Below, one piece after another: positions 30,578-33,863 of a stretch of DNA of 64,000 bases. The notes beneath the pieces are model-generated. The model saw only the letters and a program-made list of their open reading frames with translations. It was not told the DNA's origin and did not search any database. This stretch comes from Thermotoga profunda AZM34c06. Its GTDB lineage: Bacteria > Thermotogota > Thermotogae > Thermotogales > DSM-5069. The position numbers and the translations under genes were made by a program. Within the stretch, counting starts at the first letter, position 1. Every line of letters starts with the position of its first letter. The stretch spans positions 124,001 to 188,000 of the forward strand of contig NZ_AP014510.1 in NCBI RefSeq assembly GCF_000828675.1. The letters are read 5' to 3'.

Positions 30578-31663
30578 TCAACTCAATTGTTCAAGAATTT
30601 CGAAAAAAAGTTCACCTGCCACTTCAATTAACTCATCTGAAGGCAAAAACCAAGGGCTGTGCAGGCCATAAGATCTTTCTTTTTTCGTACCAAACCAATA
30701 CATAAGCGTTGGAAAATGCCCAGAAAAATATCCAAAATCTTCAGCAGTCAACTTGATGGGAGATTCAATGAACTTCATATCCTTTCTTACAGCTATTTTT
30801 CTCAGCAACCAATAGAGATTTTCTTCAACTTCAACCTGTCTGTAGACAGATCCCTTGATCAATTCGCAAGTTGCTCCAGAAACTTCACAAGACTCTTGTG
30901 CAATCTGTTTGATCTGAATCAATCTGTTTTCAACAGATTTTAGATCTTTGGATCTAACCGTTCCCTGTACTAAGGCCCTATCTGCAACTATATTTCTTGC
31001 AGATCCAGCTTCTAATCTACCAAACCAGACTAAGTCATCTGTCCAATTTGTTTGGTATATCTTTTGTAGAAAATCTACACACGATCTGATCGCATCTCTA
31101 CCTTCTTTATGAAATGCAGCGTGAGCGGCAACACCTTTAAAGACGACATCTACTTCGCATGATGCACTAAAGAGTACGCCCACTCGAGATGCGATCGTCC
31201 CAGCTTCGTATTCATCGGTCACATGCATCGCAATTGCTGCAGATATTTCCATATTCTCTTTTTTGAGATAATCCAAGATTTGAATAGCACCAGCACCTGA
31301 TTCTTCTGCAGGTTGAAATACAAAAATGTAATTACCTTTCAAATCATTCTCAATCACTTTGCGCATCGCCCAACAAACAGATGCCATGTGAAAATCATGA
31401 CCACATGCATGCATAAAATTGTTCTGTGATTGAAAGGTACAATTAGTTTTCTCAACGATCGGTAGGCCATCCATTTCGGCGCGAAGTAGTACAAATGGGC
31501 CTTGCGAGGTCTTTTTTACGACAACGATACCCGTCCCTATTTTTCTTACGTCTTTATAACCTAATTGCTCAATGTAATCAACTAAGATTTTTTGCGTTTC
31601 GTACTCATTAAAAGCGAGCTCAGGCTTTTGATGCAAAAGATGTCTCAATTCTATTTCGTTCAA
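30578..31663 (-). CDS. M20-family amidohydrolase, probable N-acetyldiaminopimelate deacetylase
   Basis: 361-residue zinc amidohydrolase. Metal ligands in HACGHDFH and QPAEESGAG, His in AIAMHVTDEY, and the dimerisation/lid domain in the middle. In its operon it would deacetylate N-acetyl-LL-diaminopimelate, the last step of the acetylase branch begun by DapH; hippurate or aminoacyl-amide hydrolysis is the general alternative. TTG 31663 is 6 bases after AGGAGG (31675-31670); a longer ATG at 31690 lies upstream of that SD. It overlaps the aminotransferase gene by 44 bases. Confidence 0.85.
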   Translation of the reverse strand: MNEIELRHLLHQKPELAFNEYETQKILVDYIEQLGYKDVRKIGTGIVVVKKTSQGPFVLLRAEMDGLPIVEKTNCTFQSQNNFMHACGHDFHMASVCWAMRKVIENDLKGNYIFVFQPAEESGAGAIQILDYLKKENMEISAAIAMHVTDEYEAGTIASRVGVLFSASCEVDVVFKGVAAHAAFHKEGRDAIRSCVDFLQKIYQTNWTDDLVWFGRLEAGSARNIVADRALVQGTVRSKDLKSVENRLIQIKQIAQESCEVSGATCELIKGSVYRQVEVEENLYWLLRKIAVRKDMKFIESPIKLTAEDFGYFSGHFPTLMYWFGTKKERSYGLHSPWFLPSDELIEVAGELFFEILEQLS

Positions 31664-32801
31664 AGTCAACCTCCTTAATGCTATTTTCAAACAATTCTAC
31701 TATCATGTCTATCTCTTTATAATCAATATTCAACGGTGGTAAGAAACGCACAACATTCCGATTAACTATATTCAACAAAAGTCCATTTTTGAAAGCCACC
31801 TGCTTCAGTCTTTCTGGATCAACACTCACTTCGACACCAATCATTAAACCAAGCCCCCTGACCTCCTTTACCAGTCCATTATTTATGAATTTGAGTTCAT
31901 TTTTCAGGTATTCACCCTTTTGTCTTACTTGAGAGATCAATGTATCATCGATTTTTTTCAGTACAACACTGGCACCTGCCAAAGCAACTGGATTTGGTGC
32001 AAATGTTGAACCGTGTTCTGAATACTTAAAGACATCCATTATCTCGTCCAAAAAGATCGTTGCTCCAAGTGGGAGCCCTCCTCCAAGTGCTTTTGCAACA
32101 GTGATGATATCTGGTTTCAATCCAAAGTGTTCATAACAGAAAAATCTACCAGTCCTACCAAGTCCAGATTGAACTTCATCGGCAACGAGTAGAAAACCTT
32201 TCTTCTCTTTCATTTCCATAATAGTTCTTGCCATGTTATTTGAGATCGATTTTAAACCTCCAGTACCAAGAAGGCTTTCGACAAATACACCTGCTATTTG
32301 GTTTTGTTCCACAAATTGTCTGAACAGTTCTGGATTGTTATGTGGCAGAAAAACTATATCTGGCAAGAGTGGAGTGAATGGTTCCCTAAGATTTGGAAAT
32401 CCTGTTATTGAAAGAGATCCAAGAGTCCTGCCATGAAAATCTTGTTCGAATGCAATAATTGTACCTTTCTTCAATTTTTTTATGGCTTTCAATGCCGCTT
32501 CATTTGCTTCTGCTCCAGAGTTTGAAAAGAAAACCTTTCCTTGACGTCTTGTTCTTTGGATTAGATTCATTGCCACGGTCTCAGTGTCTTCATCAAGAAA
32601 AAAATTGGAGATATGAGTGTACCGCTTCATCTTTTGGATCATCGCATTCTCAATATCTCTATCACAATGACCAAAAGCCAAAACACCTATACCAGAAAAC
32701 GTATCAATGAATTTCTTCCCATCTTTTGTATAAATATATATACCCTGTGCATGATCGATCTGCAAATCAAAAGGTTTGTAAACACCACATAAGTGATTCA
32801 C
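31620..32801 (-). CDS. Class III aminotransferase, probable N-acetyl-DAP aminotransferase
   Basis: 393-residue PLP enzyme of the ArgD/LysJ group. [11 protein letters not shown] is the phosphate-cup region, [13 protein letters not shown] holds the Asp that bonds the pyridine N, and [12 protein letters not shown] carries the Schiff-base Lys; [11 protein letters not shown] follows. Position between dapH and the deacetylase argues for N-acetyl-2-amino-6-oxopimelate transamination. Acetylornithine aminotransferase is the sequence-based alternative, and the acetylated DAP pathway often uses a class I enzyme instead, so this pairing is noteworthy. GTG 32801 overlaps the dapH stop by 4 bases. Confidence 0.82.
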
Positions 32802-33562
32802 AAGAATACCCCCCGTTCTGTCGGCAAACTTCTAAGAGCTTCTACGATTTTGGTTTTTTCCTTAGTCTTTTCATCAACCTTTTTGATGAATCTTGCTGGG
32901 ATGCCTGCGACAACCGTGAACGGTTCTACATCGTTGATGACAACTGCACCGGCTGCAACAACTGCACCTCTACCCACTGTGACTCCCTCTAAAACGACTG
33001 CATTTGCACCAACCACGACATCATCTTCGATGACTACAGGTTTTGCACTCGGTGGTTCTATAACTCCTGCTATTACTGCACCAGCACCGATATGGCAATT
33101 TTTCCCGATGATCGCCCTCCCACCAATTACAGTGTTCATGTCAATCATTGTTTTTTCACCTATAATTGCACCGATATTTATGACAGCACCCATCATGATA
33201 ACTGCGCCATCGCCGATTTGCACAAGATCTCGGATAATTGCTCCTGGTTCAATCCGTGCATTGTATTTTGTAAGATCTGCCAGAGGAAGTGCGGAATTTC
33301 TTGCGTGCACTTCGATGTGAATATCCTGGATTCTGTGTTGGTTTTCCTGAATAAATTTTTTGAGTTCTTCATATTCACCAACGATTATTCCAAAATTCTG
33401 AGTTCCAAAAAAATGGAGATTACCAAGATCAACCTTTCTAAAGTCTCCTTTCACGTAAGCAGTAACTGGGGTTTTTTTCTTAGATTTGCTGATCAACTCG
33501 ATAATTGCGTTGGTTGTCAAGTTTTGTGTAAAATTTTCACTTTCAACCTGAACCTCTGTCAT
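32798..33562 (-). CDS. dapH: Tetrahydrodipicolinate N-acetyltransferase
   Basis: 254 residues. An N-terminal alpha/beta domain (about 1-90) precedes a left-handed beta-helix made of hexapeptide repeats ([20 protein letters not shown] and onward). [10 protein letters not shown] and [24 protein letters not shown] are characteristic of DapH rather than DapD (succinyl type). It acetylates tetrahydrodipicolinate in DAP/lysine synthesis. ATG 33562 has AAGGGGG 8 bases upstream. First structural gene after the attenuator. Confidence 0.93.
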
Positions 33563-33610: not shown

Positions 33611-33648
33611 TAAAAAGAAAACCGGGCTACCTTTTTGGTAGCCCGGTG
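33611..33648 (-). terminator. Intrinsic terminator in the dap operon leader
   Basis: Perfect 11-base-pair hairpin: arms ACCGGGCTACC and GGTAGCCCGGT (33647-33637 and 33631-33621 on the minus strand), loop AAAAA, then TTTCTTTTT. It lies 50 bases before dapH, so it stops transcription before the operon unless its 5' arm is taken by the antiterminator (33700-33710). Confidence 0.88.
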
Positions 33649-33713
33649 ATCTTTTTCCCTTAAGCCTGTGTGCTACAACGCATGCACACCGCCTTGTGTG
33701 ACCACCGGGCGGT
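33641..33713 (-). promoter_or_regulatory. Antiterminator and competing hairpins of the dap attenuator
   Basis: GCCCGGTGGTC (33710-33700, minus) can pair with GATCACCGGGC (33651-33641), the 5' arm of the terminator plus three bases: 10 Watson-Crick pairs and one G-U. A competing hairpin, ACCGCC (33713-33708) with GGCGGT (33693-33688), uses part of the same segment, and GTGTGC (33689-33684) with GCACAC (33673-33668) spans the leader stop codon. The structures are mutually exclusive, the signature of transcription attenuation. Seen in sequence; not tested by folding. Confidence 0.65.
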
Positions 33714-33771
33714 TGCACTTCTTAGCATTCTTCATTTGTATAGAAATTTGTTCAACAAGATCTTTTACCAT
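33673..33771 (-). CDS. Putative 32-residue leader peptide of the dap operon
   Basis: ATG 33771 follows a good SD (AAGGAAGGAGAG). The peptide begins MVKDLVEQIS and contains MKNAKKCNRP, ending at TAG 33675-33673. Four of 32 residues are Lys; the tandem AAG AAG codons (17-18, 33723-33718) stand 7 bases before the antiterminator segment, which codons 21-24 encode. A ribosome paused there would cover the sequestering arm 33713-33708 and free the antiterminator. The peptide has no recognised domain. Its reality is inferred from SD, position and codon arrangement. Confidence 0.6.
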   Translation of the reverse strand: MVKDLVEQISIQMKNAKKCNRPVVTQGGVHAL

Positions 33772-33801
33772 ATTTGGAAAACTCTCCTTCCTTTTGGCAA
33801 T

Positions 33802-33807
33802 ATCATA
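33802..33807 (-). promoter_or_regulatory. Candidate -10 of the dap operon leader
   Basis: TATGAT (33807-33802, minus) would start transcription near 33795, just before the leader peptide SD. No good -35 is visible 16-18 bases upstream, so confidence is low. Confidence 0.35.
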
Positions 33808-33863
33808 CTATCTTGATCACCCATCTGTGATTGAAGATATAGAAAAAAATCATTGAAGAAATT

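Follow-up and report, generated by a model that had tools for sequence, protein, structure and literature searches.

A putative ribosome-mediated attenuator with lysine codons ahead of the dapH operon of Thermotoga profunda, and related leaders in other Thermotogota

The window analyzed here is a stretch of 64,000 nucleotides of the Thermotoga profunda AZM34c06 genome, and positions without another label refer to it. On its minus strand lies an operon that starts with dapH; the gene of a class-III aminotransferase overlaps dapH, and the gene of an M20 amidohydrolase then follows (Table 1). The operon likely encodes the enzymes that the acetylated branch of diaminopimelate (DAP) synthesis would require, the roles of aminotransferase and deacetylase being probable assignments only. 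The DAP/lysine operon named in the earlier note is hence corrected: dapH, the aminotransferase, and the M20 deacetylase cover the middle of the pathway only, without a recognizable dapA or dapB. No DapB_C match indicating dapB was obtained in the complete T. profunda genome, and within the family dapB occurs in the genomes G002, G004, and G008 only. Likewise, dapA is unrecognizable in T. profunda; the assignment of dapA to one of three DapA-family paralogs was rejected since all of them score under the dapA cut-off. The asd gene of T. profunda is of a different type and is sited apart from the lysine genes; the genome retains lysA and a DapF-family gene. A double role of the aminotransferase as ArgD, by which the operon would be retained, was also rejected, as a separate argD above the cut-off exists. 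The persistence of a lysine attenuator on dapH without recognizable dapA and dapB remains a weak point of the interpretation below, and we have no explanation for its retention. Elsewhere in the genome (locus L265, 8168–9076; G000:C1:2098167–2099075), a protein with a diaminopimelate dehydrogenase C-terminal domain (PF16654) adjoins the DapF-family gene, in surroundings that resemble an amino-acid degradation cluster.

The leader of this operon features a short ORF with two tandem lysine codons, a set of competing helices, and an intrinsic terminator ahead of the first gene. The candidate promoter has 9 of 12 consensus matches in a consensus scan with a weak −35 box, and its −10 box TATGAT is identical in the relatives G009 and G010. 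A purine-rich Shine–Dalgarno (SD) sequence ahead of the leader ORF is also present in most relatives. The masking hairpin pairs 33713–33708 with 33693–33688 and can be extended past a one-base bulge by three pairs (33716–33714 with 33686–33684); this helix ties up the start of the antiterminator 5′ arm. The antiterminator consists of 11 pairs, one of them G–U, between 33710–33700 and 33651–33641. In addition, a 6-bp hairpin at the stop codon fits inside the antiterminator and is in partial competition with the masking arm. A perfect 11-bp stem (33647–33637 with 33631–33621) with a U run behind it forms the terminator. Terminator-like sites number two—one palindrome, counted on both strands—versus 0.3 expected in shuffles, and the folding z-score is −7.6. 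Since the neighboring phosphofructokinase gene upstream of the leader is divergent, the minus strand has no upstream gene for which the terminator could act. The earlier note had described a 32-codon minus-strand leader ORF with a good SD, a perfect 11-pair terminator with a 5′ arm that alternatively pairs over 11 bases with codons 21–24, and a 6-pair masking hairpin, and all of these held. It had placed the end of the ORF 35 bases before the terminator, which failed: the gap from the end of the stop codon to the terminator stem is 25 nt. The stop-codon hairpin was missing from its elements. A transcript start downstream of the terminator would have refuted it; no promoter-like site was found between the terminator and dapH, as judged by a consensus scan of the sequence only.

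Table 1. Features of the dapH operon and its leader in the T. profunda window
Feature	Sequence	Position	Strand	Basis or remark
Candidate sigma-70 promoter	−35-like ATCACA (33831–33826), −10 TATGAT (33807–33802)	33802..33831	minus	
Shine–Dalgarno of leader ORF	AAGGAAGGAGAG	33782..33793	minus	from sequence
Leader peptide ORF, 32 codons	MVKDLVEQISIQMKNAKKCNRPVVTQGGVHAL*	33673..33771	minus	open in 25 leaders
Regulatory codons 17–18 (Lys-Lys)	AAG AAG	33718..33723	minus	tandem Lys invariant in nine family-1 dapH leaders
Masking helix 5′ arm (segment 1)	GCAACCGCC	33708..33716	minus	pairs with 33693–33684; covariation, 25 leaders
Masking helix 3′ arm (segment 2)	GGCGGTGTGC	33684..33693	minus	folding and covariation
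Antiterminator 5′ arm, codons 21–24	GCCCGGTGGTC	33700..33710	minus	pairing across relatives
Antiterminator 3′ arm	GATCACCGGGC	33641..33651	minus	common to terminator 5′ arm
Stop-codon hairpin	GTGTGC (33689–33684) with GCACAC (33673–33668)	33668..33689	minus	folding, relatives
Intrinsic terminator	ACCGGGCTACC-AAAAA-GGTAGCCCGGT then TTTCTTTTTA	33611..33647	minus	kept in all relatives
dapH, tetrahydrodipicolinate N-acetyltransferase, first operon gene		32798..33562	minus	TIGR03532 359 bits (cut-off 232); PF08503
Class-III aminotransferase, ArgD-like, probable N-acetyl-DAP aminotransferase		31620..32801	minus	PF00202; under argD cut-off
M20 amidohydrolase, probable N-acetyl-DAP deacetylase		30578..31690	minus	PF01546; TIGR01891 above cut-off

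The RNA folding proposed in the earlier note as a check confirms, by model, that the antiterminator and the masking helix with the terminator are mutually exclusive. At 37 °C, the energies amount to −22.7 kcal/mol for the terminator, −12.8 kcal/mol for the masking helix, −28.0 kcal/mol for the antiterminator with the stop-codon hairpin, and −35.5 kcal/mol for the masking helix with the terminator, so that the complete transcript favors the terminated state; the two full states rank identically at 60 and 70 °C. In ribosome-free RNA before the terminator 3′ arm exists, the antiterminator is favored over the masking helix at equilibrium (−28.0 versus −12.8 kcal/mol), from which we infer that the off state depends on the masking helix forming first. 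The 3′ edge of a ribosome usually lies about 15 nt past the start of the P-site codon. A ribosome that holds codon 17 in its A site leaves the RNA free from 33710, exactly where the antiterminator arm begins, and covers half of the masking arm; with codon 18 in the A site, the RNA is free from 33707, the masking arm is wholly covered, and 8 of the 11 antiterminator pairs are left. Upon removal of the RNA upstream of the ribosome edge and with the terminator 3′ arm unmade, the antiterminator folds in all 25 leaders of the comparative set described below. That a stalled ribosome frees the antiterminator is a prediction of this model, based on geometry and truncated folds only. A ribosome waiting at the stop codon covers, at its usual footprint, the masking 3′ arm, and the off state therefore probably needs quick ribosome release, as has been suggested for Shewanella leuA (PMC2659441).

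The family containing T. profunda (family 1) comprises 11 genomes, ten of them with dapH, and the leader lies directly upstream of dapH in nine of these ten. The tenth, G008, carries ahead of dapF-dapH a diverged leader (..N I K R Y C P V I..), in which the stall site holds only one Lys codon and a masking helix is not clearly discernible. The core AAGAAG(TGCAAC or CGCAGC)CGCCCGGTG(A/G)TC is found again ahead of dapH in eight further genomes of the family, which shows that the leader is not a product of chance. In the dapH leader of G002, the Cys-Asn codons are replaced by Arg-Ser, and Lys-Lys is kept. Insertions and deletions among the family leaders measure 3 or 6 nt inside the ORF and 1–2 nt past the stop. 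The N-terminal half of the leader peptide is unconserved, with leader lengths of 22 to 44 codons, and the conserved residues fall on RNA arms. The constraint that these arms put on the codons accounts for the conserved Cys, Asn, and Pro after the lysine site—a regulatory role of these residues is not needed.

Leaders of this design are not confined to this family. A narrow, family-only distribution had been suggested by an exact-motif search of the phylum and was overturned by reading the upstream regions of DAP operons. In G002, G004, and G008, dapA-dapB lies elsewhere in the genome, and each operon carries its own leader of different sequence and the same plan, with the peptides ..IIIIKKRNRPP.., ..ENKKAKRSHP.., and ..IIKKTKHNCP.., respectively. 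The lineages f2-g5/g6, f5, and f8, all without an L-box, feature leaders before asd or dapF (..KKAKRSCPL.. or KSKAKRSCPL, ..KKAKHSRLV.., and ..KKYVKCPPG..). Leaders of the same design also precede asd-dapFAB-dapH and aspartokinase genes. All 25 DAP leaders have an open ORF in which the predicted stall site carries a Lys codon, and at least two Lys codons lie near this site in 24 of them. Over the 25 leaders, Lys exceeds all other residues in enrichment (4.9-fold) within the ten codons of this site. The T. profunda leader by itself has 4 Lys among 32 residues (P = 0.14) and 3 of 10 near the site (P = 0.024). The lysine count is unremarkable in any single leader, and the lysine link is strong once relatives are compared; it is, in reversal of the earlier note, which had called it the weaker part, the strong part of the reading. 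The comparison with related species proposed in that note finds the ORF, the Lys codons, and the pairing all conserved. A pattern scan across GTDB gave scattered matches in many phyla and was too loose to bear on the distribution outside Thermotogota.

The pairing is supported by covariation. The 25 leaders were aligned by MAFFT from sequence alone (alignment A4), and RNAalifold recovered the masking helix and the terminator from this alignment unaided. For both helices together, 93.7% of the cells are paired and 12 of 19 pairs change on both sides; the masking helix contributes 7 such pairs out of 9. Cells with changes on both sides number 63, whereas shuffles average 25 and not one of 500 attained the observed number; in slid controls, pairing collapses to 26–39%. 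As the shuffles disregard relatedness, agreement across lineages weighs more than these counts. The terminator 5′ arm pairs alternatively with the leader ORF in each of the 25 leaders; antiterminator cells are paired to 100% in family 1 and to 98.9% for the shared part over the 25 leaders. At one position, a joint switch between G-C-G and C-G-C involves the antiterminator arm and the 5′ and 3′ arms of the terminator. Within family 1 alone, no significant covariation was found because the arms are too conserved, and the antiterminator duplex is only marginal against shuffles (p 0.05–0.13 for dapH leaders).

A covariance model built from the 25 leaders (R1) was run on 103 genomes of the phylum. 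Most of the new matches, which were not chosen by gene content, are located ahead of amino-acid genes. In G002, a leader before hom-thrC-thrB (L306, G002:C1:390989–391116, minus strand; E 1.8e-10) reads ..SGTTTTSNCPP.. and is paralogous to the dapA leader of the same genome: the terminators are near-identical, and Lys-Lys is exchanged for four Thr codons. Of all the evidence, this swap points most strongly to the codons as the sensor. Before aspartokinase, G024 and G025 carry the leader NKKQVKYSPGG. In the T. profunda genome itself, a leader ..EIKHHAKYSP.. (..VEIKHHAKYSPVDP..) lies upstream of an amino-acid ABC transporter (L305, G000:C1:409129–409253, plus strand), for which the closest NCBIfam family to its SBP_bac_3 protein is Lys/Arg/Orn-binding, under the cut-off. 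Further leaders of amino-acid ABC transporters read ..NIKKHVKRCCPG.. and ..NKKHHVKYPPGG.., and the motif KKHHVK occurs among the transporter leaders. The L305-type transporter leader was also observed in G008, G009, and G010.

Weaker R1 matches (E 0.02–0.06) in several family genomes concern an operon of a TrpX-like ABC transporter with lysA, with the leader ..SYAYWWFRG.., which is likely an aromatic amino-acid attenuator. Conserved Tyr-Ala-Tyr-Trp(-Trp) codons and a switchable terminator are seen before the TrpX-like operon with lysA at L266 of the T. profunda genome (G000:C1:23318–23477, minus strand) and at L269 and L274. As separate observations, leaders with Arg/His runs (NERRDHR and NERRHHR) precede a peptide-binding ABC protein (SBP_bac_5) at L310 and L313 of G018 and G021, and a Tyr-Tyr-Phe-Trp-Tyr leader precedes an ABC operon with a permease resembling the TrpX-linked one (L319, G016:C24:24701). 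No credible leader was found at G031:1308381, an examined match of E > 1e-4, most such matches having been left out.

Peptide-leader attenuation had been called unusual for lysine genes. The L-box (RF00168) is found in 57 of the 103 phylum genomes, in 0 of the 11 genomes of the T. profunda family, and in 0 of the 23 genomes in which R1 matches at E ≤ 1e-7; no RF00168 match occurs in the 64-kb window, the T. profunda genome, or its family. L-boxes are described in most Thermotogales (PMC3766115) and upstream of the lysine operon in the Thermotogae species examined in PMC5584792. No T-box model of Rfam reaches its gathering score in the window, and none matches at E ≤ 1 in the leader loci; the Rfam amino-acid leader families (His, Leu, Thr, Trp) have no match in the window either, nor at E ≤ 1 in the leader loci. 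In family f11 (L111, L112), a DAP operon was observed with neither an L-box nor a clear leader upstream of asd. The dapH tree mostly tracks families, and the attenuator-bearing genes need 4 changes on it. A single origin of the attenuator-bearing dapH, put as a single clade, was rejected moderately only (AU p = 0.019; some long branches). It is therefore probable that an inherited operon underwent more than one change of regulator. The leaders are alike and, hence, are argued to be homologous; it is possible that both hold, if the two RNAs coexisted early or the leaders moved alone.

Three other readings were weighed. The leader may be a real attenuator that, the lysine pathway of T. profunda being broken, senses basic amino acids or the general translation state there. 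The absence of dapA and dapB matches from the complete genome speaks for this, as do the Cys, Asn, and Arg after Lys-Lys and the mixture of Lys with His in related transporter leaders. However, G002 changed Cys-Asn to Arg-Ser and kept Lys-Lys, the residues after Lys-Lys are set by RNA arms, and the three family members with dapA-dapB have Lys leaders there too, whereas the hom leader has Thr; we regard this reading as very improbable. A ligand-binding riboswitch or protein-binding leader with an incidental ORF would be in line with the very strong conservation of core nucleotides in the family and with the common L-box control of lysine genes in the phylum. Yet no Rfam family matches even at E ≤ 1, the sequence varies across lineages while ORF, Lys codons, and pairing persist, in-ORF insertions and deletions are multiples of three, the codons vary with the target gene, and the switch helices alone are conserved, without an aptamer-like core. 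This leaves next to no room for that explanation. The same degree of doubt applies to a small functional protein with the hairpin as its ordinary terminator: the SD of the ORF and the conservation of its C-terminal half would suit it, but the N-terminal half is unconserved at variable lengths, and the conserved residues match RNA arms, with the terminator 5′ arm pairing with the ORF in every leader of the set.

The preferred reading is a ribosome-mediated transcription attenuator that senses charged tRNA-Lys. The leader ORF, the tandem Lys codons, the masking helix, the antiterminator, and the terminator are shown, as are their conservation and covariation; the function is inferred without expression data, and we hold it to be very likely. 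The leader fulfills what defines this class: a short ORF with an SD between promoter and terminator (its translation being inferred from sequence alone), codons for the end product (weak on the T. profunda leader alone), an intrinsic terminator before the first gene, and an exclusive, conserved or covarying antiterminator. When charged tRNA-Lys is short, the ribosome would stall at codons 17–18 and cover the masking 5′ arm; the antiterminator, with the stop-codon hairpin nested inside, would then sequester the terminator 5′ arm, which would allow transcription of dapH and of the aminotransferase and deacetylase genes. When lysine is plentiful, the ribosome would finish and leave, and the masking helix would re-form before the terminator arm emerges, leading to termination. 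Without translation, the masking helix should form too, so that the system would be off by default. The stall at the tandem AAG codons and the resulting expression, as proposed in the earlier note, are supported at this inferred level.

The mechanism as such is known. The his, thr, leu, trp, ilv, and pheA attenuators of Proteobacteria likewise feature a leader ORF with cognate codons, a U run before a biosynthetic operon, and mutually exclusive antiterminator and terminator, whereas the T. profunda leader is lysine-specific, resides in a Thermotogota host, and matches no Rfam leader family. Specificities listed in PMC3766115 are His, Leu, Thr, and Trp in Rfam and, in addition, Ile/Val and Phe. 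Closest in design is Shewanella leuA (PMC2659441), in which an anti-antiterminator is likewise formed from leader-ORF sequence and half of the antiterminator, and the system switches off when the ribosome has left at the stop codon and the masking stem has formed anew; it differs in its leucine codons, sequence, and phylum, and the nested stop-codon hairpin is an extra feature of the lysine leader. The uORFC-8-2 candidate at cysS (PMC8632094), also found by comparative genomics outside the classical set, similarly joins tandem cognate codons (Cys-Cys) in a uORF to a terminator but concerns cysteine in Rhodobacterales. The Thermotogota L-box has the same position and DAP operon target, and lysine lowers expression by termination as it would here; unlike the lysine leader, it binds lysine directly and without an ORF. 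Lysine specificity and phylum are, as far as the literature searched shows, new. No lysine attenuator was found in it—a provisional statement, since Lopatovskaya et al. 2010 (cited in PMC4833913) could contain one.

In this view, the same element would regulate DAP genes in four Thermotogota lineages without an L-box, and threonine synthesis and amino-acid transport appear to be controlled by related elements that carry other codons. A bolder reading is that of a homologous, modular attenuator family of Thermotogota, in which the stall codons were exchanged as copies moved between operons—Lys for DAP and aspartokinase genes, Thr for hom-thrCB, Lys/His for basic amino-acid transporters, and possibly Tyr/Trp for the TrpX-like transporter—and of which the Lys version was repeatedly exchanged with the L-box on lysine operons passed on by vertical descent. 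Taken jointly, these claims have the balance of the evidence slightly on their side.

Lysine synthesis is the textbook riboswitch case in Thermotogota, and attenuation by charged tRNA had been listed for other amino acids only, and mainly in other phyla. A sensor of free lysine and an unrelated sensor of charged tRNA-Lys on one operon in sister lineages would make the replacement of a regulatory RNA directly testable, and the Lys-to-Thr swap between paralogous leaders of one genome would be a natural experiment on how attenuator specificity changes. An attenuator of this kind would also imply effective coupling of transcription and translation in thermophiles.
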